From Gammaproteobacteria bacterium (GTDB lineage Bacteria; Pseudomonadota; Gammaproteobacteria; SZUA-152): 35,028 bases of DNA. Numbering within the stretch: the first letter of the stretch is position 1; every line of letters begins with the position of its first letter. Below the pieces are notes generated by a model. That model searched no databases, was not told where the DNA came from, and saw nothing but the letters and a program-made list of their open reading frames with translations. This document shows, one piece after another, positions 2,641 to 35,028 of this stretch. The translations under genes and the position numbers were made by a program. The stretch lies in assembly GCA_029882975.1 (NCBI GenBank), contig JAOUJW010000045.1, positions 1 to 35,028 on the forward strand, written 5' to 3'.

Positions 2641-5430
2641 CTACAATTTACTGATTTTTTCCAATTGTTGCTCCAAATTGCCAATGGCGGCTCGAATACC
2701 ATCAATACGTTCCCGCTCTTTGTTCACCACAGCTTCCGGCGCTTTCTCCACAAAGCTGGGGTTGTTGAGTCGGGCCTCGCCGCCGTCCAGGTCTTTTTGC
2801 AGTTTGGCCAGGTCTTTGTTCAGGCGTTTGATTTCGGCATCCTTGTCGATCAATCCCGCCATGGGAATAAGCACTTTCATATTGCCTACCAGGCAGGTGG
2901 CGGATTCCGGTGCTTCTTCCGCATCCAGAGAGGTGATGGATTCGGTTTTCGCCAGTTTTTCCACGTAGTTTTGATATTTGTGCAACAAGGCCCGATCATT
3001 TTCCGATGCATCCTGCAATAACACCGGCAGCGGCTTGCCCGGTTTTATATTCATTTCACTGCGAATCTTGCGCACACACATGATGAGACTTTGTAACCAG
3101 TGGATTTCTTCCACCGAGGTCGCGTCAATGAGGCTTTCGTCGCACTCAGGGTAGGCCTGGGTCATGATGCTGGAGTTAGACTCGAGCATCATGCCGGTTA
3201 GGGGTGCAACCCGTTGCCAGATTTCTTCGGTAATATACGGCATGATGGGGTGAGACAAACGCAGGATACTGTCCAGCACGTGAATCAAGGTGTGGCGTGT
3301 ACCGCGCAGGGCTTGCTCGCTGCTGTCTTTGTTGTTTAATACCGGCTTGGAAAGTTCCAAATACCAGTCACAGTACTCATTCCAGGTGAAGTCATAAATC
3401 GCCTGCGCCGCCAAGTCCATACGGTATTGTTTAAAACTTTGTATGACGTGTTTGGTGGTTTGTTGCAAGCGGGCGATAATCCATCGGTCCGCTGCATTGA
3501 GGCTGTAGTCTTTATTGCTTTGGCCGCAATCCTGGCCTTCCGTATTCATTAACACATAACGGGCAGCGTTCCATACTTTGTTGCAAAAGTTGCGATAACC
3601 TTCCACGCGGTTTAAATCAAAATTGATGTCGCGTCCGGTAGAGGCCATGGCGGCAAAAGTAAAGCGCAACGCATCGGTGCCGAAAGGGGGAATGCCGTCG
3701 GGATAGTCCTGGCGTGTGGCTTTTTCAATTTTCGGTGCCATTTGCGGTTGCATCAGTCCGGTGGTGCGTTTGCTGACCAGGGTTTCCAACTCCACGCCAT
3801 CGATCAAGTCAATGGGGTCCAGCACATTGCCTTTGGACTTGGACATTTTCTGCCCGTGAGAGTCACGCACCAGACCATGGATATACACTTCATGGAAGGG
3901 CACTTTGCCGGTGAATTTCAGACCCATCATGATCATGCGGGCTACCCAGAAGAAAATAATGTCGAAACCGGTGACCAGAACATTGGTGGGGTAAAAGGTG
4001 TCCATCTCCGGTGTTTGTTCCGGCCAACCCAAAGTGGAAAAGGGCCACAAGGCAGAGGAGAACCATGTGTCCAGCACGTCTTCGTCCTGGCGCAGGGTGA
4101 TGTCATTTCCCAGTTTATGTTCCCGACGAACCTCGGTTTCGTCTCGACCTACATACACATTGCCTTGCTCGTCGTACCAGGCCGGGATGCGATGTCCCCA
4201 CCACAGTTGTCGGCTGATGCACCAGTCTTGAATATTGCGCATCCAATCGTAATAGGTGTTTTTCCAGTTGTCAGGAACAAACTTAATATCGCCGTCTTCC
4301 ACGGCTTTGATGGCCGGTTCCGCCAGGGGAGCAATGCGTACATACCATTGATCGGTTAAGAAGGGTTCGATAACCGCGCCGGTACGATCGCCTCTGGGTA
4401 CCATAAGTTTGTGCGGTTCGATTTTCTCCATCAAGCCCAGTTCTTCCAGATCTTTGACGATTTGTTTGCGGGCCACGTAACGATCCATGCCACGGTATTT
4501 TTCCGGAGCGTTGTCATTGATGGCTGCATCGACGGTGAAAATATTGATTTTGGGTAATTGGTGTCGTTCGCCTACCTCGTAGTCATTGAAGTCGTGAGCC
4601 GGCGTAATTTTAACGCAGCCTGTGCCGAAATCCTTGTCCACGTATTCATCGGCTACCACGGGGATTTGCCGATCGGTGAGCGGCAGTTTGATGGATTTGC
4701 CAATAAACGCTTTATAGCGTTCGTCTTCCGGGTGTACCGCCACGGCGGTGTCACCGAGCATGGTTTCGGGCCGCGTCGTTGCGACCACAAGTTCACCACT
4801 GCCGTCGGCAAGGGGGTAGCGCATATGCCACATATGGCCATTTTCTTCTTCGGACAACACTTCCAGGTCGGAGACGGCGGTGTGCAGTACCGGATCCCAG
4901 TTCACCAGACGCTTGCCGCGGTAAATCAAGCCTTCCTGGTGCAAGCGAACAAAGACTTCTTTGACAGCTTCGGACAAACCTTCGTCCATGGTAAAGCGCT
5001 CCCGTGACCAATCCACGGATGCGCCCATGCGGCGTAATTGGCGGGTGATGGTGCCACCGCTGTGCTGTTTCCATTCCCAGACTTTTTTCACGAACGCTTC
5101 CCGGCCCAAGTCATGGCGAGTCAGGTTTTCGTTTTTCAACTGGCGTTCCACCACCATCTGGGTTGCGATTCCGGCATGGTCCGTACCTACTTGCCACAGA
5201 GTTTTGTGGCCCTTCATGCGATGAAAGCGGGTGAGGGCATCCATAATAGTGTCTTGAAACGCGTGGCCCATATGCAAGCTGCCGGTAACATTGGGCGGCG
5301 GTATCATGATGCAATAAGCCGAATCTTGATGAAGGTCTTGATGGGATTGGGATGGCGCAAAAACACCGTTTTTTTCCCAGGTTTCATACCAGTTTTGTTC
5401 TATGGCGTGTGGATCGTAGGTTTTTTCCAT
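2641..5430 (-). CDS. valS: Valine--tRNA ligase
   Basis: Class I aminoacyl-tRNA synthetase that charges tRNA-Val with valine in the cytosol. It is 929 residues, close to the 951 of E. coli ValS. The HIGH signature appears as HMGH at residues 53-56 after PPPNVTG. The CP1 editing domain carries [13 protein letters not shown] (218-230), and KMSKS lies at 528-532. The anticodon-binding region follows, and residues about 865-925 form the Lys/Glu-rich tRNA-binding coiled coil typical of ValS. The ATG at 5428-5430 fits the family N terminus ([11 protein letters not shown]). It is transcribed divergently from alaC across a 257-bp gap and seems to be a single-gene unit, since the upstream region contains the divergent promoters and the downstream gap holds repeats. 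Confidence 0.98.
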
Positions 5431-8285: not shown

Positions 8286-9362
8286 ATGCCATTTCGACCT
8301 CGTTACACCGGTCTGATCGATAAGTACCGTGATCGACTGCCTGTTCATGACGATACCCGGGTTATCAGTCTGGGAGAGGGTAATACCCCATTAATTCGTC
8401 TTCATAATATTCCGGCTGCAACCGGCAAAGACGTGGATATTTACGTCAAATATGAAGGACTGAATCCTACCGGCAGTTTTAAGGATCGGGGTATGACCAT
8501 GGCGGTGACCAAAGCCGTGGAAGAGGGCAGTCGCGCTATCATTTGTGCCTCTACCGGCAATACTTCGGCGGCAGCAGCGGCCTATGCGGCCCGTGCCGGC
8601 ATCACCGCATTTGTGTTGATACCCGAAGGAAAAATTGCCATGGGTAAGCTGGCTCAAGCGATGATGCACGGCGCAGTGGTGATTCAAATTAAAGGCAATT
8701 TCGATGCCGGTATGCAATTGGTTAAGGATGTGGCCACCGAAGCGCCGGTGACGATTGTGAATTCCATCAATCCCTATCGTCTCCAGGGGCAGAAAACAGC
8801 GGCTTTTGAAATATTGGAGGAATTGGGTACGGCGCCTGATTATCATTGTTTGCCGGTTGGCAACGCCGGTAACATCAGCGCCCATTGGATGGGCTATAAG
8901 GAATACCACGAGCATGGCATTGTTAATAATCGTCCCGCCATGGTGGGATATCAGGCTTCGGGCGCTGCACCGTTTTTGCGTGGTGCCATGGTGGACAATC
9001 CCGAAACCGTAGCGACGGCTATTCGAATCGGTCATCCTCAAAGTTGGGATAAAGCCTGGGATGCGCAAAAAGACAGCGGCGGTTGGTTTGATGAATGCAG
9101 TGATGAAGAAATTCTGGCCGCGCAGAAACTGTTGGCGCAAAAAGAAGGCGTTTTTTGTGAACCGGCTTCCGCTACCTCTTTAGCCGGTGCTTTACGGGAT
9201 ATTGCTTCCGGTAAAATCAAAGAAGGTTGTAAAGTGGTGTGTACACTGACCGGACATGGTCTGAAAGACCCGGATACCGCCATTAAACAAAGCACCTCTC
9301 CCATGATTACTGTGGACGCCACCATGGACGCGGTAAAAAAAGCCATTTTAGATAATATTTGA
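8286..9362 (+). CDS. thrC: Threonine synthase
   Basis: PLP enzyme that converts O-phosphohomoserine to threonine, the final step of the pathway. It is 358 residues, the shorter form of the family rather than the roughly 430-residue E. coli form. [11 protein letters not shown] contains the Schiff-base Lys at residue 66. [13 protein letters not shown] is the phosphate-binding loop, and [12 protein letters not shown] is the glycine-rich cofactor phosphate site. The ATG at 8286 follows AAGGAAAC (about 8 nt upstream). Spacing to hom is 33 bp, so co-transcription is likely. The stop is followed by an imperfect inverted repeat before tgt. Confidence 0.96.
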
Positions 9363-9363
9363 G

Positions 9364-9405
9364 AGAACCTCTGATTAATTATCCAGGAATAAAACCGAGG
9401 TTTCT
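9364..9405 (+). other. Imperfect inverted repeat between thrC and tgt
   Basis: AGAACCTC (9364-9371) can pair with GAGGTTTCT (9397-9405) with one bulged base, across a 25-nt loop. It ends 8 nt before the tgt GTG start, so it could affect tgt translation. There is no U-tract, so intrinsic termination is unlikely. The stem is short and may be chance. Confidence 0.25.
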
Positions 9406-9407
9406 AA

Positions 9408-10514
<1,107 letters not shown>

Positions 10515-10571
10515 TAAATAATTAATAAAAACAAAAAGATATGATATTTTTCAGAGACAGTGCTGGAAAAT

Positions 10572-10585
10572 GGCCGATTTCGGCC
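10572..10585. other. Perfect hairpin in the tgt-yajC gap
   Basis: GGCCGATTTCGGCC is a perfect palindrome with 6-bp arms in the 202-bp gap between tgt and yajC. A second short palindrome, GGATATCC, lies further on, near 10650. Neither is followed by a U-tract. The gap may hold a promoter for yajC-secDF; no convincing -35/-10 pair was found. Confidence 0.25.
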
Positions 10586-10716
10586 TTATGTGCAAAGCAA
10601 TAGCGCTCACAAAAACAGCCTAAGTATGTAATAATAGCGCGCTTTCCGGGATATCCGGAGACCCGTTAAAGAAATTCAATATAAATCGAGAATTAACCCT
10701 AAGGTAAGGAAGGTCT

Positions 10717-25448: not shown

Positions 25449-25622
25449 GTTTCCTGCTTTCTCTCTCCTTGGAATATTATCATTATATTATATAAGTGAA
25501 TTAAAGCGCCCAGTTTTGAAATGGGGCGCCCTGTCTGCGTTATTTTCCTAAATAAAATCGTGGTTTTTGACGATAAAACTAAGATTCGAGATGGTAAAAA
25601 AATACTTGCTAACGGGGTCTTA

Positions 25623-28600
25623 ATGTTAGGTAAAAATCGGCAGGATGCAGTACCTGGAGTGGAACGACGTTCCTCGGAGCGCGATCCGGCATTTTTGGGT
25701 GCAGTGTTGAGTACTGATGCCGGTCGCTTTCCCTGTATAGTGCGAAGTTTTTGCATGGGCGGAATCTATGCCGTATTTACTGATGGTATTCGGCATGATT
25801 TAAAAGCGAATACATCTGTGGATCTTCAGTGTTCCATTCCGTCTACCAGTGGTACCCAGTCACTACTCCAGTTTCAGGCCCAAGTGGTCCGGGTGGATAC
25901 GCACAGCGTGGGATTGTCATTTGTTAATCCTAATATGGAACGACTAACGCTTTTGCAACAGGCCGTCAAACAGGCCAGGCATAAAGCAGAGCAAATGCAG
26001 AGGAATAAAAAAGCCAAACCGACAGGAATCGACCAAAGAGCAATCACTTCAAATCGCCAGTCATTGATTATTCGTTGTAATAGTATTTGTAATGAATTTG
26101 CGCCAAAGATAATCCGACAATTTTTGAAGTCCATCGATACTGAGCTGCGCCAACTGGCACAAGTGAAGCGGGATGTGGCTGTGCAAAATTTGTATCTGGA
26201 GGGTAGAGACGAATTAGCTCGGGTTCAAAGCAAAGTCAGTCAGGAATTCACTGCCTTGATCCGTGGGGATTTGGCAGGATTCAAACCCACAAAGGTAGCA
26301 AAAGCCTCGGGTGAGTTAACGCTGACCTTGATGGAACAAACGGTATTTGACAATTGGTTGGCGGATACTGTTGTAGTTGACAAAATCGAGGAAAATAATC
26401 GCAAAGCGCTTGTAGATTTGGAGCAGCGTTTGAGTGTTTTATGGGCAGTGGAAATTGACAAGGATAGCAACCCTTATCGGCCTGGGTTTTGGTTAGGCAT
26501 ATTTCGAGACATTATTAAAGGGCTGGGTTTGAGTAAAGAGGTCAACTCGGTTTGCAATAAAGCCTTTGAACAATTGCTGTTGTCTGAGTTGGGTCATTTG
26601 TATTCTTCACTCAATAATTTCCTGATCAAACAAAAAGTTCTTCCTGTTATCGAACACAAAGTTAAAGTGGTAAAGGCGAAAATTCCGTTTGCAGACCTGG
26701 AGGAATCCCGGGAATCCATAGAGCACAATGTGCATGAACACGCTGCCTTGGAAATCAAGAGGGAATCCACTTTAGAACCCAGCGCGAAAAATTCGGCAAA
26801 CACTACGGAAAAAAATGCAGATACAACCACAGGCAAAACCACAGCAAAAACCATAACCACAAAAAATTCGGAAATCCAAACGGTAAAAGAAATTCCTGTG
26901 GGCAAGGATGCAGCCGTAAAACTGGAAGTCGTGGATCGGAATACAGCTCCGGAAGGGTCCAACGTAGCAACTGATACCGGTACTGCTGAAGCTGATATTG
27001 ATAGGGAAAAGGAGCGTGGTAGAGCCATCAGCGATAGTGGTTTGTACTTCTTGATCAGCAGGCTATATGGTTTACAGCATGAGCTTGGGCTCAGTCAGGA
27101 TAACCGTTGGTTTTCTTTTCAACAATCCACAGACGGAATGGTCCAACGCAGCGAGCTTTGTTCGGTTTTACGAGCACATGCCGCGGAAGAGCCCTTGGAG
27201 AAATCCGCGCTTAACTTGGAAGACTGGGTGGTGCAGGGATTAGAGAGGGGTGTGGAAAAGGGTTTGAATAACTGGCAGGCTAAGGAAGCTAAAAGGATAA
27301 AAATCGGAGCCAGGGAAGCCAGCATTATTCGGTTTTCAAGTCGTTTATTCTCCGCGTTAACTTTGGATTATCGTATCTCTGAAATGGCCCGCCTGTGGAT
27401 TAGAAGGCTGCAGTTACCGGTCTTAACCTTGACGTTGGAAGATGAGGCGGCATTGTTTTCCGGATCTCATATAGTACGGAAAGTACTACAGGGTTTATCT
27501 TGCTTGGAGTTATCCATACAAGCGGGGGATGCAGAGTATAACAATCGATTAGTTGCATTGCAGGATTGTTTGGAAACCCTGGTATCCGGCACCGGTGATA
27601 GGAACAGCGCTTTTGTCAAAACAGACGAAGCACTGAGTCAATTGCTGCCTATGCAGAAAAAAATATATCGGGAAAACCTGGATTCGGTGGTACGAGCCTG
27701 TATTAAAACCGGTGAGTCCTCTACGGCTAAATTGAATCCCAAAACGCACGCTAAAGCCAAGAAAATCATTAATCGTTTGAAAGGGGGAGAGTGGTTCCAT
27801 TTTCAGCTGACCCCGGATACGGCAATGAGACTTCGTTTAGCTTGGTATCCTGAGAATATGAGTTATTTTGTTTTTATTACCCCAATGGGCGTAAAAAACC
27901 GAACCTTATCCGTGTTGGATCTAGCCCAACGATTGGATTCGGGTGAGGTTTCTGTGAGTGCACATTTTGTTAAATCGCCGGTAGAAACGGTATTGTTGGA
28001 ACTTCTTCAGGGCATGCATACCGAACTGTTGCGTACTACTACGCACGATATGTTGACGGGGCTGTTGAATCGCCAGGCGTTTGAAAAGGTCTTGGAGCAA
28101 GCATTGGATCAAGTGAAGTGTCAGGATAAAAAGTTTGTATTTTGCCATATTGAATTTGACAATTTTAAAAGCATTAATGATCAATGCGGATACTCCGGTG
28201 GTGACAAACTGCTAAAACAGGCAGCGGAGAAATTGCAGGAGTTTTTAGGTAACCGAGGTGTCACAGCCCGATTGAGTGGTACCGAGTTTGCAGTATTATT
28301 AGAGAATTGTTCCGTGGAAGAGGCCCTGGATCTTGGTGAAAGTCAAATCAGAGCATTTTCATCGCACCGTTTCCATTGGAAAAATAAAGAGTACCGAATC
28401 TCAGTGAGTATGGGTATGGTGCCTGTGAGCAAGGCCTGGGAGAATGCGGAGGGATTGATGAAAGCGGCCGGCTCCAGTTGTGCCTTGGCTCGCAATATGG
28501 GAGGTGGACGTTTACAACTGTATCATTCGGGACATAGTAAACAAGCCCAACACAGCCAGATGTTGCAATGGATTAGTGAACTGGAAGATGCTTTGAAAAA

Positions 28601-29330
28601 CGATAGGCTGGGCTTGCGGGTTCAAAGAATCCAGCCCACCGGTTCGGATACAGCAAAGCGTCGATACGAAGTGTTGCTGACGGCAAGCGACAGTAAAGGT
28701 AATGATCTGTCAGTACACAAATTTATCAAAGCAGCCGAATGGTACAACAAAATCTCTCAGATTGACCGTTGGGTCATTAAAAGCGCAATGCAGTGGATGG
28801 TGCAACATACGGAGTTGCTGTCTAATATTGACAGCTTGTCTTTGAATCTATCGGCTATGTCGCTGAACGATGAAGATTTGGTTGCTTTTGTAGAAGAACA
28901 AATGTTAACTACAGGAGTTAATCCTCGACAAGTTTGTTTTGAAATAACTGAATTAGCCGGTATACAACCCCTTTCCGAAGCCGCGGAGTTTATTGACCGG
29001 ATACGACAAACTGGATGTAAATTTGCATTGGATGACTTTGGAGCCGGGTCGTCTTCATATGCTTATCTTTCGCAATTACCCATTGATTACTTTAAGGTGG
29101 ATGCGGGGTTTATTAAAGAATTTACCCGCAACAAAAACTCTTATGCTGTCGTGAAATCGATCTGTGAAATAGGGCGCTATTTAGGGAAAAACGTTGTAGC
29201 TGAATGCGTTGAAGATGAAAACACCATGGAGATGCTCATACAGGCCGGTGTGGATTATATTCAGGGATACGCGGTAGAAAAACCCATATCGTTGACAGAC
29301 CTAACAGATAACGGAAATTTTCCGAAGTAA
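25623..29330 (+). CDS. PilZ-like / DUF1631 / GGDEF (degenerate) / EAL protein
   Basis: 1235 residues, cytosolic, with no membrane segments. Residues 14-105 resemble a PilZ c-di-GMP receptor domain: RSSER (16-20) fits RxxxR, but the second motif is RSFCMGG (41-47) instead of the usual D/NxSxxG. Residues about 140-780 match DUF1631, including the signature NPYRPGFWLG and LYSSLNNFLIKQKVLP. A Thr/Lys-rich low-complexity linker interrupts it at about 395-470. A GGDEF domain follows (about 805-965) with SGTEF at 885 in the active site and no I-site, so it should not make c-di-GMP. The EAL domain (about 980-1230) keeps EVL (1016), the Asn, Glu, DDFGAG (1137), Lys and Gln positions, so phosphodiesterase activity is plausible. 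An in-frame ATG at 25521 would add 34 residues without family support. Confidence 0.85.
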   Translation: MLGKNRQDAVPGVERRSSERDPAFLGAVLSTDAGRFPCIVRSFCMGGIYAVFTDGIRHDLKANTSVDLQCSIPSTSGTQSLLQFQAQVVRVDTHSVGLSFVNPNMERLTLLQQAVKQARHKAEQMQRNKKAKPTGIDQRAITSNRQSLIIRCNSICNEFAPKIIRQFLKSIDTELRQLAQVKRDVAVQNLYLEGRDELARVQSKVSQEFTALIRGDLAGFKPTKVAKASGELTLTLMEQTVFDNWLADTVVVDKIEENNRKALVDLEQRLSVLWAVEIDKDSNPYRPGFWLGIFRDIIKGLGLSKEVNSVCNKAFEQLLLSELGHLYSSLNNFLIKQKVLPVIEHKVKVVKAKIPFADLEESRESIEHNVHEHAALEIKRESTLEPSAKNSANTTEKNADTTTGKTTAKTITTKNSEIQTVKEIPVGKDAAVKLEVVDRNTAPEGSNVATDTGTAEADIDREKERGRAISDSGLYFLISRLYGLQHELGLSQDNRWFSFQQSTDGMVQRSELCSVLRAHAAEEPLEKSALNLEDWVVQGLERGVEKGLNNWQAKEAKRIKIGAREASIIRFSSRLFSALTLDYRISEMARLWIRRLQLPVLTLTLEDEAALFSGSHIVRKVLQGLSCLELSIQAGDAEYNNRLVALQDCLETLVSGTGDRNSAFVKTDEALSQLLPMQKKIYRENLDSVVRACIKTGESSTAKLNPKTHAKAKKIINRLKGGEWFHFQLTPDTAMRLRLAWYPENMSYFVFITPMGVKNRTLSVLDLAQRLDSGEVSVSAHFVKSPVETVLLELLQGMHTELLRTTTHDMLTGLLNRQAFEKVLEQALDQVKCQDKKFVFCHIEFDNFKSINDQCGYSGGDKLLKQAAEKLQEFLGNRGVTARLSGTEFAVLLENCSVEEALDLGESQIRAFSSHRFHWKNKEYRISVSMGMVPVSKAWENAEGLMKAAGSSCALARNMGGGRLQLYHSGHSKQAQHSQMLQWISELEDALKNDRLGLRVQRIQPTGSDTAKRRYEVLLTASDSKGNDLSVHKFIKAAEWYNKISQIDRWVIKSAMQWMVQHTELLSNIDSLSLNLSAMSLNDEDLVAFVEEQMLTTGVNPRQVCFEITELAGIQPLSEAAEFIDRIRQTGCKFALDDFGAGSSSYAYLSQLPIDYFKVDAGFIKEFTRNKNSYAVVKSICEIGRYLGKNVVAECVEDENTMEMLIQAGVDYIQGYAVEKPISLTDLTDNGNFPK

Positions 29331-30524
29331 ATCCAATTCAGTGGGATCCGGGTAACGCCGGAAACGGTATCGTAACGGGGTAAAGTCGGTTGTTTCGAAT
29401 AGATGCGGGATGTTTCGAAATGCAGTTGACCAGTTAGTAACGATTTTCTCATCGGTGAGCGGGTCGAAAAACACCAAGGTATCCGCCCTGGGTAGCAGCG
29501 TGTCCACATCTTTGGTTACCACGCTTAAGGTTTCATAGAAACCGGTTTCATCGTTGGTGCTAAGCAGGCAGGATGCGGTGAAAATATCCGCTTGTTTTTG
29601 ATACAAGTAGCTACACAAAATATGTTTCTGTGCTTCGTAGTTTCTGCTTTTCCAATATTGATTCAAGTTGTACAGGGGTTTGCTGATTTCATCCTGCTGT
29701 TGTGGAAAATGCTCCAGTGTAAAATTATTGAGTGTGAGCGCGTAGCCAGTGATAACTTTAGGTTCTTCATCCAGTGCTTTGCGGGTGATTTCAGCCAAGT
29801 CTTCGATCCCTTGAGCGTCTTTAGATCCAGTGACGAGAATAGTGTTGCGTGTGGGTAGGGTGATTACCGGATCACCAAGCAACTCCAGGCGATGAAACAG
29901 TTCAGGAAGGAATATTCGGGAAGCATCATAATCATCCTGCCATTGAGATATGTATAGGCCGGGTTTCAAGCTTTCAAAGGGTTGATAACTGACTTTGCGG
30001 AGATTGTCCTGTGCCTGGGCGAATGCTTCATCAAAATCGATTTCCCATTTGGCTAACGTGTCTTTTCCCACAATTGCCATACTGTCCTTGTAGTCAAAGA
30101 TTAGCGTTTTATATAAACAGGGACTGATGGCTTGACGGGCTGAGGGTAAAAGGGAGTTTCCGCCTAACTCAGATAATAAGCGCAGGTATTCCCATTCTTC
30201 CGGTTCTCGAATTCCGGGATAGATGCGGGATTGTGCCTCGGAATAGGATTCCGGTAGTTCTTGTGCCGCCATACTCAATACACTCTGGGCGAACTGGTGC
30301 AGAATTTGCTTTTTTTCTTTTCCGTAGGAAGCACAGTATTGTTTGTACGCATTACGCAGATACCAATGTTGGCTCCACTCATCATTGACCAAAAACTCAA
30401 TACTAAAGTCCGGTTCGTTCAAGCGAAATTCGAATTCACAATTGTTTTGGCGCAGCGCAACAGTTGCCAGTTTTGCAAACTGTTTTTCGGTGGGATTAGA
30501 TGAGAAGAAACTGAAGATTCCCAT
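29301..30524 (-). CDS. DUF1444-like protein
   Basis: 407 residues, no signal peptide and no membrane segment. The central part resembles DUF1444 (YtpQ/UPF0354): NLRKVSYQPFESLKPGLYIS, then ASRIFLPELFHRLELLGDPVITLPTRNTILVTGS with the conserved pattern of an acidic strand, the P-x-R/T-N loop and a hydrophobic strand. Function of the family is not established. The ATG at 30522-30524 has AAGGCAG about 5 nt upstream. Its last 30 nt overlap the 3' end of the EAL gene in opposite orientation, so the two transcripts are complementary there. Assignment to DUF1444 is by motif pattern only. Confidence 0.72.
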   Translation of the reverse strand: MGIFSFFSSNPTEKQFAKLATVALRQNNCEFEFRLNEPDFSIEFLVNDEWSQHWYLRNAYKQYCASYGKEKKQILHQFAQSVLSMAAQELPESYSEAQSRIYPGIREPEEWEYLRLLSELGGNSLLPSARQAISPCLYKTLIFDYKDSMAIVGKDTLAKWEIDFDEAFAQAQDNLRKVSYQPFESLKPGLYISQWQDDYDASRIFLPELFHRLELLGDPVITLPTRNTILVTGSKDAQGIEDLAEITRKALDEEPKVITGYALTLNNFTLEHFPQQQDEISKPLYNLNQYWKSRNYEAQKHILCSYLYQKQADIFTASCLLSTNDETGFYETLSVVTKDVDTLLPRADTLVFFDPLTDEKIVTNWSTAFRNIPHLFETTDFTPLRYRFRRYPDPTELDLLRKISVIC

Positions 30525-30560
30525 GATACTGCCTTAGAACCTCTGCGACTGCGCTTTGTT

Positions 30561-30570
30561 ATGCCGGCAT
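30561..30570. other. Perfect 10-bp palindrome between divergent genes
   Basis: ATGCCGGCAT lies in the 152-bp gap between the divergent DUF1444-like and binding-protein genes. It could be an operator site or chance. No convincing promoter pair was found in this gap. AGGTAG just before 30677 serves the downstream gene. Confidence 0.2.
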
Positions 30571-30676
30571 GACGGTGCGCGGCGTTGTGTGAATTTACAT
30601 AGATTTAACAATTTCTCGGCTTGTTGCATTGGAATTTGCCGATAATTTGGCATTACTCGTTCAAGCGTAGGTAGAC

Positions 30677-31525
30677 ATGGCTAAAAAATATACAGCAAAT
30701 GGTGTGTATTTTCTATTGCTTTTAAACTTGTTTGCATTTAATTGCTTCGGCGAATCGTCGCGAACTACAGAAAAAATTCAACTAAAATGGGCAGTTATAC
30801 CTCAATTTTCAAGTACCACCACCCAAAAAAACTGGACTCCTTTTGTGGGATATTTGGAAAAAGTCACTCAAACTAAAATTCAACTACTGGTGTATGATGA
30901 TTTTTCTTCGTATAACAAAGACTTACAGAGTGGCGTGCCGGATTTGGCTTATGTGAATCCCTACAATGCGCTGCAAGCCAGGCGGAACCAAGGCTATATA
31001 CCCATAATTCGTGATGCGGCTGGGAAATTATCTGGAATATTGGTGGTACGTAAGGATAGCGGCATACAACGATTGGATGAGTTGATGGGGGCAGATATCG
31101 CGTTTCCAGCGCCAACCGCTTTCGGGGCCTCACTGTATCTAAGAGCACTTTTGCAGTTTCAATATAAGCTTAAATTTAATCCGGTATATACCGGATCCCA
31201 TGGCAATTCCTATCGTTCAGTTTTGTTTGGTCGGGTTTCGGCCGGTGGTGGTGTGATTCGAACTTTGGAAGCGGACCGCCCTCAGGTCAGTGACAATCTG
31301 CGGATACTATACAAAGCACCTAGTACAACACCACATCCCATTGTGGTTCATCCCAGGGTTGATACATCATTGCGGCAACAGCTGGTGGCCACTATTCTCG
31401 AAATGAACAAAAACCAACAAAGTCGCCGGTTATTGCTTGCGGTAAAGATTACCGAATCCATGGCAACCTCATATAGTGAATACGAGCCGTTGGAATTGTT
31501 ACAACTGGATCAGGTTCAACAATAA
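30677..31525 (+). CDS. PhnD-type periplasmic substrate-binding protein
   Basis: 282 residues, with AGGTAG ahead of the ATG. A signal peptide covers about residues 1-25 ([16 protein letters not shown]); the Cys is not in a proper lipobox, so the protein is probably soluble in the periplasm. The fold matches the phosphate/phosphite/phosphonate-binding (PhnD-like, PF12974) family: LDLAYVNPY-like [38 protein letters not shown] and the [22 protein letters not shown] loop. No ABC permease or ATPase gene is nearby. Instead a hybrid histidine kinase starts 13 bp after the stop, so a sensory role (ligand presented to the kinase) is more likely than transport. The ligand is not known and need not be a phosphonate. 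Confidence 0.85.
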
Positions 31526-31538
31526 AGGGCAAAACGGC

Positions 31539-33854
31539 ATGGGTTGGTTAAGACAATGGTTTTACTCTCGCAGTCTATCGGTTCAATTGCTGATGAAAAT
31601 CGGCACCACTCTCTTACTTTGCATGAGCCTGCTGATCTATTTTTACGGCAATAAGCTGATTATAGAAGAACGTTTGTCCCATATCCAAAGATTGCAATTG
31701 TTGAGCGCAACTATAGCCTCAACGCTGTTGCCTATGATGATTCAAAAAGACTATACCGCCATTGAAAAGTATTTGGTAACTGCAGCAAGAAATCCCGAAT
31801 TGTTGAACATAGTTGCCGTGAATTCAACAGGACAGGTAATTGGAAATGTGCATCGTATCGGTTTAGAGGCATCATCAAATGGGCTTGTGGTCCCCGACTA
31901 TTCTCTACAAACCATAAAAACTCCAAAAAGAGATTCCGTCGCTGACAATTTGGTGCAGGAATATCCGGGAGGTATGGAGATTTGGCAAACGGTTGTTAAT
32001 GGCCCGTTGGTGGGTTGGGTTAGAATAAACGTGAGTAATCGCCAGTTTCGGTTGATCCAGAATAGAATATGGTTTAGTTCCATTGCGATGAATCTTGGTG
32101 CAGCCCTCGTGTATATCGTGTTATTGTTTTTATTGATGCGTCGACCCCTGCGAATTGTGGAAAAGGCGGCGAAGTTTGCTGCGCGGCTGAGGGATAACAA
32201 AGGTGTGAAGATGGTTGTGAAACCATCGGCAAAGGAGTTGGACGATTTAGTTACTTCCTTGAATTTTACTTCTGAAATTTTGCAGCAACAGGAACTGTTG
32301 ATCCAGAAAAAAACCGAATCATTGGAGCAAGCACGGGAACTGGAAGTGAAGGCCAATTGGGCTAAATCCGAATTCCTTGCCAGTATGAGTCATGAAATCA
32401 GGACGCCTATGAACGGCATATTGGGCATGCTGACCTTACTGCGTGAGACGGAACTGGATACCCGCCAAAAGGATATATTGGATACGGGATACCAATCCGG
32501 AGAATATTTGCTCGCGCTCATAAATGATATTCTTGATTTTTCTAAAATCGAATCGGGTAAAATCACACTGGAAGCGATCCCTTTCGATATGAGAAAGTCA
32601 ATCGAAGGGATGATGGAATTGTTGTATGCGTCAGCTCAAGCCAAGGGTTTGGAGTTACTCTTGGATATGTCACCACAATTTCCCCGTATGTTGGAAGGGG
32701 ATTCCACACGCTTTATTCAAATTGTTACCAACTTGACCAGCAATGCCATTAAGTTTACCAACGAAGGAGAAGTGGTGATTCGGTGCGAGCTAAGGCAGTC
32801 TGAAACCGGTAATTGCAACATCTTAGTTGAAGTGATCGATTCCGGAATTGGCATTGACCAAGGTAAGCTGTCTGTGATTTTTGACTCCTTTACTCAGGCC
32901 AACAGCAGTATCACTCGCGAGTATGGTGGCACAGGCTTGGGTTTGGCTATTTCTAAAAAACTGGTCCATTTGATGGGAGGGGATTTAGCTGCGGAATCGG
33001 TTGAAGGCCGTGGCAGCCGTTTCTGGTTCACGGTACGGATGCCGGTTCATACCCCGTCTTCGTTACGATCTTCAAGCAACCGGAAAATACTTTTACTTTT
33101 GGACAACGCGCGGCAGGCTGACATCCTTCAACGCTTCTTTCAAGACGCTCATCTACAATGTGATCTGTGTACAGCGGACAACTTGCAACAGCGTCTGAAG
33201 CAACAATATGACGTGTTGGTTGCCGATATTACGCAAGGCGAGGCGATTTCCGCATTACTGCAAAGTGATTTCGCCCAATCAGGGCAACGATTGAAAGTGA
33301 TTTTGCTCAGTAAGCTTAGCCTTGATGATAAGCCGCAAATGTCTCTGGTAAAAGTGCTTCATAAACCGGTTAAATCTATGCAATTATTGGAAAATATTCT
33401 TGGTAAAGAATCGTTTGCAGAGACTCCCAAGGAATTGGCGGCTGCAAAAACGGGAAAGGGACTAAAGGGATTGGTTGTGGAAGATAACCGGATCAACCAA
33501 AAAGTGGCGGTGGGGATGCTGGAAAAATTGGGTATGCGCTTGGATGTTGCCAATAACGGAGTTGAGGGGTTGGCTGCGGTCAAAATTAAAAAGTACGATA
33601 TAGTATTCATGGATTGTAATATGCCTGAGATGGATGGATATGAATGTACTCAAAACATTCGGATGTGGGAACGCGATACAGGTGCCCGACGAGTGCCCAT
33701 TGTTGCCATGACGGCAAACGCCATTGACGGTGATCGCGACAAGTGTCTGCAACAGGGGATGGACGATTACATAACTAAACCCATAAAAATCGATCAGTTG
33801 GCGCGCCTATTGGCTGTGTGGGGTAAAGACAGTTCCAACTCGGATGTCGCTTGA
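31539..33854 (+). CDS. Hybrid sensor histidine kinase
   Basis: 771 residues, inner membrane. The ATG at 31539 (AAAGGG upstream) fits; the frame is open to 31476, inside the upstream gene. Membrane segments span about 19-36 and 183-200, enclosing a 145-residue periplasmic domain. A HAMP-like segment (200-255) and a coiled coil follow. HisKA carries SHEIRTP with His 285. HATPase has NLTSNAIKF (Asn 402), DSGIGID (434-440) and GGTGLGL (463-469). Residues 515-622 form a receiver-like domain with only one Asp in the acidic pocket. Residues 643-763 form a standard receiver with phospho-acceptor Asp 692, Thr 725 and Lys 748. No HPt domain is present. It probably pairs with the adjacent binding protein and the downstream receiver. 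Confidence 0.95.
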
Positions 33855-33901
33855 GCATTTTTTACGCAAGGTTTTACAAAGTTTCACCCTGTTGAGGTTT
33901 A

Positions 33902-33907
33902 TATAAT
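33902..33907 (+). promoter_or_regulatory. Candidate -10 element before the receiver gene
   Basis: TATAAT lies in the 145-bp gap after the kinase gene, about 93 bp before the next start codon. No good -35 lies 16-18 bp upstream. It suggests the receiver-second sensor pair could be transcribed separately from the kinase, but this is weak. Confidence 0.3.
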
Positions 33908-33999
33908 ATTTGTGAGAACCGATAGTTAGCTAAGTCTACGTGGTTTATGAACCTGTGCTTGAGTTTGAATGCATAATGCGAAATACAAGCTAATATTCT

Positions 34000-34503
34000 A
34001 TGGGGCAGACTGGAAAAACGGATAGTAATCAACAAATAGTGGATGTCAGCCAAACAAAACTGCGAAAATTCCCAATGACAAATAAATTAGAGGACAGACC
34101 AAGCGGGCAAAAGCCAAAATCCGGGCAATATCTGGTACTTTATGTGGAAGATAACCCTGCGAATTTGCGTCTTATGCAACAAATCATTCGTCTACGTGAG
34201 GATCTAAAATTGATTCACGCCGCGTCGGGGCAGATGGCCATTGATATGGTTGAACAAGAAAATCCGGATTTAATATTAATGGATATAAACTTGCCGGATA
34301 TTGATGGATTTAGCGCTCTGTTTATTCTGAAAGATAACGAAAGCACTAAGGACATTCCGGTGATTGCAGTGACTGCGAATGCCATGCCGGACGATGTTCA
34401 AAGGGGAAAGGATGCCGGCTTTTTTGATTACATAACCAAACCCGTCGAATTGGACCGCTTGTTGGAAAGTGTCGACAAAGGTATACGGTCGTTAGAACAA
34501 TGA
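34000..34503 (+). CDS. Stand-alone receiver-domain response regulator
   Basis: 167 residues: a variable, charged 40-residue N-terminal extension, then one CheY-like receiver domain (about 43-165). The acidic pocket is VEDN (Glu 50, Asp 51), the phospho-acceptor is Asp 95 in LMDINLPD, Thr 125 lies in VTANAMP, and Lys 147 lies in ITKPVE. There is no DNA-binding or enzymatic output, so it likely acts as a phospho-relay intermediate or by protein contact. Neither the ATG at 34000 nor that at 34075 has a good Shine-Dalgarno; 34075 would trim most of the extension. Its TGA overlaps the start of the next gene by 4 nt (ATGA), so the two are translationally coupled. Confidence 0.9.
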   Translation: MGQTGKTDSNQQIVDVSQTKLRKFPMTNKLEDRPSGQKPKSGQYLVLYVEDNPANLRLMQQIIRLREDLKLIHAASGQMAIDMVEQENPDLILMDINLPDIDGFSALFILKDNESTKDIPVIAVTANAMPDDVQRGKDAGFFDYITKPVELDRLLESVDKGIRSLEQ

Positions 34504-35028
34504 AAAACCTATGGGAAAGCATATTATTGGCCGCGGGGGTTACTGTCGTTTGTGGTGGAGTTTTGCTTTATTGGAGTTCTAAGTACGAAAATAACCAGTA
34601 CCAGTTAGAGCGCACTTGGGGTCAGGCATTGGCCCAATCATTGGCTATCTCGCTATCCGAAAAAACGGCAAACAAGGATAAGGTAGATACTACCGAATTG
34701 AACCAGTTCCTGAAAGAGATCGTACAGACAAATCCGTATTTGCAATTCGCTTACCTTGAAACCCAGGGGCATGAGATTATTGCCCAAAGTTCCCCGCAAG
34801 TTCGACACAGTACGGTTGCCGGCGATTCAGGTCAGGTTTTGCAGAGGCCCGTCGAATGGGTTGCGGCCAGAGTGGTTATCCCGACAAATTCCCGCACGCA
34901 TCTTAAGCTGGGCTATGTTTCCGGTTTTATTGCACGTGGCGAACCGAGGAATGGTACGGACACACTCCTGCTGATTACGGCAATAATCACTATTTTTGTT
35001 ACGGTGTTGTTTTGGAGTTACACTTTAC
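34500..35028 (+). CDS. Membrane sensor protein, N-terminal part (3' truncated by window end)
   Basis: The frame starts at ATG 34500, overlaps the receiver stop by 4 nt, and stays open to the window edge (176 codons). It begins MKNLWESILLAAGVTVVCGG, with a first membrane segment at about residues 7-24. A periplasmic domain of about 130 residues follows (for example NPYLQFAYLETQGHEIIAQ), and a second membrane segment (LLLITAIITIFVTVLFW) lies near the visible end. This two-helix layout with an extracytoplasmic loop is typical of sensor kinases, chemoreceptors and cyclic-di-GMP enzymes. The cytosolic output domain is beyond the window, so the class is undetermined. Coupling to the receiver gene suggests a second input into the same pathway. 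Confidence 0.8.
   Translation, partial: MKNLWESILLAAGVTVVCGGVLLYWSSKYENNQYQLERTWGQALAQSLAISLSEKTANKDKVDTTELNQFLKEIVQTNPYLQFAYLETQGHEIIAQSSPQVRHSTVAGDSGQVLQRPVEWVAARVVIPTNSRTHLKLGYVSGFIARGEPRNGTDTLLLITAIITIFVTVLFWSYTL

Follow-up and report, generated by a model that had tools for sequence, protein, structure and literature searches.

A PhnD-like binding protein paired with a hybrid histidine kinase: a candidate phosphorelay towards cyclic di-GMP in a gammaproteobacterium

What does a PhnD-like periplasmic binding protein do when the gene behind it encodes a membrane-bound histidine kinase instead of a transporter? The question is raised by the last four genes of a stretch of 35,028 nucleotides (hereafter the window) from Gammaproteobacteria bacterium of the lineage SZUA-152 (assembly GCA_029882975.1, contig JAOUJW010000045.1). 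The window is the whole of this contig, here called C45, and ends at position 35028. A reading of its sequence alone had proposed an undescribed sensory system at these four genes. Our analysis suggests that the cluster continues on a second contig, C30, and that it is, on balance, probably a binding-protein-gated phosphorelay controlling the breakdown of cyclic di-GMP (c-di-GMP) and, again probably, a sigma-factor partner switch. The evidence that can be read from the sequences consists of the gene order and domains, the contig overlap with an open joined frame, a conserved pair of binding protein and transducer, a sensor domain common to the transducers, and outputs that have been exchanged between them. 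The features of the window are the following.

30677 to 31525, plus strand: PhnD-like (PF12974) binding protein, 282 aa (PF12974 E 2.8e-49)
31539 to 33854, plus strand: hybrid histidine kinase, 771 aa (HisKA, HATPase_c and REC matches)
31572 to 32195, plus strand: sensor domain of the kinase (residues 12-219), common to the partners of other PhnD-like proteins whatever their output (profile searches)
33855 to 33999, no strand: spacer of 145 bp between kinase and receiver, with a possible second transcription start (open reading frame positions)
34000 to 34503, plus strand: lone receiver, 167 aa (REC E 4e-28)
34500 to 35028, plus strand: first 176 aa of a 936-aa membrane-anchored REC-HPt-REC-EAL protein (frame joined with C30)
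35006 to 35028, no strand: 23-bp end overlap with C30:61544-61566 (minus), the final bases of both contigs (exact match)

The binding protein has a hydrophobic, signal-peptide-like N-terminus (by eye), and the kinase ATG at 31539 lies 13 bp past its stop. The kinase is composed of a transmembrane (TM) segment, a periplasmic sensor domain of about 146 aa, a second TM segment (TM positions 17 and 182), HisKA, HATPase_c, a degenerate receiver-like stretch (by eye) and a REC domain; the domain search gave no HPt match in it. The lone receiver, which could instead start at an in-frame ATG at 34075, keeps its phosphorylation residues (by eye), and its stop is overlapped by the ATG (34500) of a second two-TM protein, whose frame is open at the contig end. 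The sequence-only reading had these positions right, as well as the 13-bp gap, the overlap of ATG and stop, and the lack of adjoining transporter genes within the window, and had left unmentioned the spacer between kinase and receiver. Because the receiver's first ATG comes 145 bp after the stop of the kinase, these two genes need not share a transcript, and it is possible that the spacer holds a second transcription start. A consensus scan of positions 30400-34600 for promoters and terminators gave no excess over shuffled sequences (promoter-like, 9 versus 8.6; terminator-like, 3 versus 4.2).

Where a signal would go is indicated by the continuation of the last frame. The final 23 bases of the window have an exact match at a single other place in the genome as searched, the end of the 61566-base contig C30, on the opposite strand. 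The chance odds of such a match in 5.2 Mb are about 1.5e-7 (uniform bases), before the demands of a position at both contig ends and of an open frame are added, and the frame joined across C45 and C30 is open for 936 codons. On C30, this gene is continued and followed by three others, separated by gaps of 12, 15 and 20 bp.

C30:61543 down to about 59262, minus strand: remainder of the REC-HPt-REC-EAL gene (joined frame)
C30:58089-59249, behind the EAL gene: signalling protein of 386 aa resembling methyl-accepting chemotaxis proteins (MCPs) (domain search)
C30:57768-58073, behind the MCP-like gene: STAS protein, 101 aa (domain search)
C30:56080-57747, behind the STAS gene: REC-SpoIIE(PP2C)-HATPase protein, 555 aa (domain search)

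The 936-aa protein comprises a TM segment, a periplasmic part, a TM segment, REC (271-383), HPt (429-503), REC and EAL (675-908); its catalytic and phosphorylation residues seem intact (by eye), and no histidine-kinase domain was matched in it. Extension past 35028 thus provides the c-di-GMP output that the sequence-only reading had put forward. The second membrane sensor of that reading is indeed a two-TM membrane protein, not a second kinase but an effector with a TM domain. The nearest NCBIfam model of its REC-EAL half is PvrR (NF052596; 330.6 bits versus a cut-off of 580). The 555-aa protein matches Response_reg, SpoIIE and HATPase_c_2 (the last at 23 bits, under the cut-off of 27.4), and the STAS protein resembles the NCBIfam anti-sigma factor antagonist, with 44.6 bits under a cut-off of 53.45. 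The N-terminus of the REC-HPt-REC-EAL protein matched no PDB sequence at E 10 or below, and contig-level scans with this N-terminus and with the binding protein found no relative.

The HPt domain that is absent from the hybrid kinase is present on the next membrane protein, and the relay that we propose would run through it. The PhnD-like protein would bind a small ligand in the periplasm, and the complex would alter the activity of the hybrid kinase by docking on its sensor domain. Phosphate would pass from the kinase histidine to the kinase's own REC, and then to the HPt of the membrane-anchored protein. From there it would reach the REC adjoining the EAL domain, setting phosphodiesterase activity, as well as the lone receiver and the REC-PP2C-HATPase protein, which would control how far the STAS protein is phosphorylated, in the manner of HsbR acting on HsbA. 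When the 767-aa C30 part of the EAL protein was searched against 274 genomes of the class (E 1e-60), 31 matched, mostly over the REC-EAL half only, and three other genomes matched across REC-HPt-REC-EAL. In two of these (G176 and G263), PAS-HisKA-HATPase precedes REC-HPt-REC-EAL in one frame; in G075, the visible frame begins at the first REC. A one-protein HK-REC-HPt-REC-EAL arrangement (HK, histidine kinase) therefore exists, which supports, without proving, the feeding of the window's EAL protein by a kinase.

Whether the binding protein belongs with the kinase at all can be asked of its relatives. A subfamily of 69 members in 53 genomes was assembled and every member examined (60 plus 9). 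The sources were a search that gave 96 relatives and a class-wide search of 369 genomes, 51 of which had a total of 65 matches at E 1e-25. The genomes were picked by relatedness and are not a random sample. Less similar PhnD-like matches (E above 1e-25) were examined in part, for 93 stretches overall, close ones included. Genes were called by a simple longest-frame script, with rough starts. Domains were assigned by phmmer with the window's own domains, and by Pfam for selected proteins, so that partners with diverged domains may be missed (L205 and L105 were at first). In 57 of the 69 members, the gene directly behind the binding protein, on the same strand, encodes a kinase, a diguanylate cyclase or a cyclase-phosphodiesterase. 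Fifty of these are among the first 60 members (13 kinases, 18 hybrid kinases, 6 GGDEF and 13 GGDEF-EAL proteins; median gap, 4 bp), and seven among the other nine (GGDEF-EAL in L204 and L210, kinase in L205, L208 and L209, hybrid kinase in L211 and L212). As a control, same-strand gene pairs of the same loci were compared: the second gene encodes an HK, GGDEF or EAL protein in 55 of 61 pairs that begin with the binding protein, versus 13 of 528 that begin with another gene (p 1e-57). The adjacency of binding protein and transducer, on which the sequence-only reading had staked its case, is strongly conserved. No phn- or pst-type permease, the other finding that would have spoken against that reading, was recognised beside the 69 members (by motif and TM count, with Pfam for some), although a truncated 5-TM frame in L193 is unassigned and L159, discussed below, carries an ATP-binding cassette (ABC) gene. 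A binding protein dedicated to a sensor, and probably not to an importer, is supported.

The plain pair of binding protein and receptor is the rule in this subfamily, and multi-gene clusters are a handful among the 69. The closest in plan is L037 (G068), where binding protein, hybrid kinase and a 125-aa lone receiver are followed by an HPt-REC-REC-GGDEF protein, that is, the same four-gene plan with the opposite enzyme. L140 (G058) has binding protein, PAS kinase, REC-HD-GYP, MCP, STAS and REC-PP2C-HATPase, which amounts to the extended plan with another type of phosphodiesterase. Binding protein, kinase and lone receiver are found in L162 and L163, and REC-EAL, binding protein and kinase in L208. 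Among 20 loci around HsbR-like genes, MCP-like and STAS genes lie beside the PP2C gene in five; in L145, a CheB gene lies upstream.

In the window's own genome, a kinase gene stands directly behind 10 of 12 PhnD-like matches, for which the binomial chance is about 1e-17 to 1e-18 (107 HATPase matches, 4000-5000 genes assumed). Pfam finds 18 PF12974 proteins above cut-off in this genome: 11 are single-domain proteins beside a kinase or cyclase, 2 lie in frames that also hold HATPase (C4, 856 aa; C1, 815 aa), 2 are without a transducer neighbour (C1:34418 and C7), and those of C34, C2 and C4:15708 are outside the examined set. The genome holds about a dozen transducer-linked PF12974 proteins. Two unusual arrangements were seen elsewhere: three consecutive PhnD-like genes ahead of one kinase (L078), and a 551-aa protein with two PF12974 domains ahead of a kinase (L063).

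The transducers have more in common than their position. An iterated profile made from the first 235 residues of the window kinase matches 51 of 52 partners (kinases, cyclases and an MCP), a figure that is partly circular, the profile having been trained on partners that it then matched. A profile of the periplasmic part only matches 3 of 874 other frames, including a split partner (L189) and a kinase beside another PhnD-like protein (L052). An independent 21-row profile gave 16 matches in the window's own genome, the top seven being receptors directly downstream of PhnD-like genes; the next five include a GGDEF protein on C1 behind a PhnD-like gene and a protein on C24 behind a PF04392 binding protein. 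The other three of these five, on C33, C25 and C19, have no adjoining binding protein; the C33 match is a Ser/Thr kinase that also has a cache domain. In the C24 case (L201), the gene for the PF04392 (ABC_sub_bind) binding protein overlaps that of a hybrid kinase with the same sensor domain, and the docking domain may serve several binding-protein families. On a tree of 60 binding proteins, partners must have switched at least 7 times between the kinase and the c-di-GMP type (from 50 labelled rows), and at least 16 changes are needed among five output types; the window's protein clades (98/90) with L159 (GGDEF) and L160 (GGDEF-EAL). As judged from this tree, outputs are clustered yet often exchanged.

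The nature of the ligand can be approached through the pocket. The nearest solved chains are those of ArrX (6x8w and 6x6b, E 4e-15), and the pocket of AioX is formed by Tyr88, Cys106, Tyr131, Ser161, Ser163, His192 and Asp210 (PMC5908839). Mapped via the ArrX alignment, the window protein has Asn94, Ala148, Gly150, His175 and Ser188 at the positions of Cys106, Ser161, Ser163, His192 and Asp210, so that of these five only the histidine is kept. All 20 sequences of a subfamily alignment have Asn94 and His175, and 19 of them have Ala at position 148; in its residues, the pocket is uniform across the subfamily and unlike that of the oxyanion sensors. An arsenic-oxyanion ligand was entertained, ArrX being the nearest solved relative, and dropped on these residues. 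The small anion that the sequence-only reading had suggested as one possibility is not supported either, with Ala, Gly and Asn at the Ser, Ser and Cys positions of AioX. Equivalog models do not claim the pair either: the binding protein scores 63.3 bits against PhnD (TIGR03431; curated cut-off 261), and the kinase, whose best NCBIfam resemblance is to BarA (437.8 bits versus 890), falls outside TorS (377.6 versus 676.5) and LuxQ (314.9 versus 1200).

Several readings other than the proposed relay have to be considered. The binding protein and kinase may form a closed pair of the AioX/ArrX kind that acts on a distant regulator, the receiver, REC-HPt-REC-EAL and partner-switch genes being a separate operon fed by other kinases. 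The 145-bp gap is consistent with this, in most relatives no receiver cluster follows the pair of binding protein and kinase, HsbR-like modules are also found away from any binding protein, and, with 107 HATPase matches in the genome, other donors exist. We nevertheless regard a closed pair as somewhat unlikely, since the hybrid kinase has no HPt and the next operon supplies one, since independent genomes repeat the binding protein and HK beside HPt/REC or c-di-GMP effectors (L037, L140, L208), and since the closest binding proteins couple straight to GGDEF/EAL. Another alternative is that the binding protein serves an ABC importer encoded elsewhere and the kinase just keeps track of uptake. 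BctC-BctE works in this way for citrate, and BctC is a published example of a kinase gated by the protein of an importer (PMC9602780). Of the 93 stretches with PF12974 proteins of the wider set, three (L069, L085, L097) have ABC genes behind the binding protein, and one of the two closest relatives, L159, has an ABC ATPase gene of the oligopeptide type (matching ABC_tran twice and oligo_HPY) whose end lies 28 bp ahead of the binding-protein gene. However, importer genes were recognised beside no other subfamily member, a signal transducer is the defining neighbour, and, unlike the Phn, Ptx and Pst ABC importers, the window has no permease and ATPase genes in the operon, which makes this the least probable of the alternatives, and an improbable one.

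It is also conceivable that the REC-HPt-REC-EAL protein itself senses the binding protein by means of a domain akin to the kinase's sensor domain, one binding protein gating two receptors. Its topology is the same as that of the kinase, and the partner-sensor profile gives its periplasmic part 22.1 bits, a score that none of 2000 shuffles reached (best 18.3); with the independent profile it is the 16th of 16 matches (20.4 bits, E 9.6e-4). The periplasmic-only profile, in contrast, misses it even at E 10, so that the match owes much of its score to the TM segments. The related docking domain was for this reason kept as a weak possibility only, and two receptors for one binding protein seem to us quite doubtful.

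The proposed relay has its own weak points, and the observations of this paragraph, with the ABC gene of L159 and the 145 bp ahead of the receiver, weigh against it. The join of C45 and C30 depends on 23 bp and on frame and domain logic, not on reads. No relative of the N-terminus and periplasmic part of the REC-HPt-REC-EAL protein was found at E 1e-3 in 142 other genomes of the class. The survey for the four-gene order, as suggested by the sequence-only reading, found the binding-protein/transducer pair to be widespread but the full order in only 1 other of 68 relatives (L037), and a binding protein and HK accompany the MCP-STAS-PP2C trio in 1 of the 20 HsbR-like loci. This module works elsewhere too, given the 5 of 20 loci that have it and the CheB gene upstream in L145. 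Single-sequence AlphaFold models, with a predicted local distance difference test score of 31 for the binding protein and 49 for the kinase sensor, are too poor for use. Finally, 12 of the 69 members lack a direct same-strand HK, GGDEF or EAL neighbour. Four of the 12 have a transducer neighbour of another form and speak for the pairing: in L039 it is an MCP, in L189 a hybrid kinase that is split, and in the other two a protein with the sensor domain, namely a truncated PAS protein with two TM segments (L192) and a hybrid kinase transcribed divergently (L206). In L198 and L207, a CheA-type gene (with CheW and REC domains) stands in front of the binding protein, which suggests a putative input to a chemosensory array. 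No transducer neighbour was recognised in the remaining six (L038, L049, L167, L184, L188, L193); in L038, an MCP matching the sensor profile is about 7 kb distant.

In L049, the binding protein is part of a 523-aa frame (9059-10627) with a long N-terminal extension, and a DUF4261 protein comes next, without a transducer. Two further loci of the window's genome deserve mention. The remaining genes of the window are of housekeeping type (by eye), except one upstream of the cluster, at 25521-29330, encoding a 1269-aa PilZ-DUF1631-GGDEF-EAL protein; since its GGDEF and EAL motifs read SGTEF and EVL (by eye), it may be an inactive c-di-GMP receptor. On C30, positions 3703-5421 (minus strand) encode a 572-aa HDOD-SpoIIE(PP2C) protein, followed by frames of 146, 115 and 262 aa (the last with six TM segments) and then by genes for an ABC ATPase and an MlaD protein; this may be another partner switch, linked to an operon for lipid transport.

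How new would the proposed relay be? In TorT-TorS and LuxP-LuxQ, a binding protein provides the input to a kinase, TorT and LuxP being of another binding-protein type, and NspS is a PotD-type protein. The window is like the first two in having a binding-protein-like input to a hybrid or classical kinase, and like TorT-TorS, NspS-MbaA and ScrB-ScrC in that the subfamily binding protein is encoded with a transmembrane transducer, docking being predicted. PhnD-fold proteins that gate kinases are published (AioX, ArrX and ArxX; PMC5908839), and AioX-AioS-AioR, ArrX and ArxX share with the window a PhnD-fold periplasmic protein gene beside a sensor kinase gene. Unlike AioX/ArrX, the window has the pocket Cys and both Ser replaced, a hybrid kinase, no DNA-binding regulator (HPt/EAL and a partner switch being the output) and no arsenic genes. 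In TtrS and ThsS, the PhnD-like domain is part of the sensor kinase (PMC5408782), whereas here the binding protein is separate. NspS-MbaA and ScrB-ScrC join a binding protein to a GGDEF-EAL receptor (PMC9602780, PMC10269520), so that in both a binding protein gates c-di-GMP turnover. Relatives such as L160 and L033 share this exact two-gene form, while in the window a kinase relay is interposed.

On the output side, HptB-HsbR-HsbA of Pseudomonas aeruginosa and CrsR-CrsA of Shewanella pair a REC-PP2C-kinase with a STAS antagonist, and in the HptB pathway, which is tied to c-di-GMP, hybrid kinases without their own HPt signal via the separate HptB (PMC6482189). The window resembles them in its HPt-less hybrid kinase, an HPt located elsewhere, a REC-PP2C-HATPase protein by a STAS antagonist and the link to c-di-GMP, a likeness of architecture, not of direct alignment with HsbR. 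It differs in that its HPt is a domain of the membrane-anchored REC-HPt-REC-EAL protein, its operon has an MCP-like gene, and input would come via a binding protein. The response-regulator phosphodiesterase PvrR corresponds to the REC-EAL half, without the TM domain, REC and HPt in front. Because the AioX/ArrX-kinase and NspS-MbaA/ScrB-ScrC pairs are already known, the system of the window would be a variant of a known principle, and binding-protein gating of kinases and c-di-GMP enzymes is an accepted mechanism (PMC9602780); to call the principle undescribed was too strong. In the open-licence PMC literature, no description was found of a PhnD-like protein with a c-di-GMP receptor, of this cluster, of the subfamily as a general receptor plug, or of a binding protein connected to a relay that comprises HPt-EAL and a partner switch.

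A bolder interpretation, which we consider unlikely at present, is that the subfamily and its common docking sensor domain constitute a general plug-in receptor class with kinase, cyclase, phosphodiesterase and chemoreceptor outputs. The locus would then be a lifestyle switch complete in itself: a single binding protein would gate the hybrid kinase as well as the HPt-phosphodiesterase, and its signal would be split between c-di-GMP breakdown and the sigma-factor partner switch. If this were true, the membrane-anchored HPt-phosphodiesterase would be a receptor that itself carries a phosphotransfer domain. The PBP clan is common in c-di-GMP proteins, where only one of its 27 Pfam families has been studied (PMC8846402), and only about ten binding-protein-activated kinases are characterised (PMC9602780). 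If our interpretation is right, the HsbR/HsbA-like switch would gain an input, and identifying a single ligand would reveal, in one go, what many orphan kinases, cyclases and phosphodiesterases respond to.

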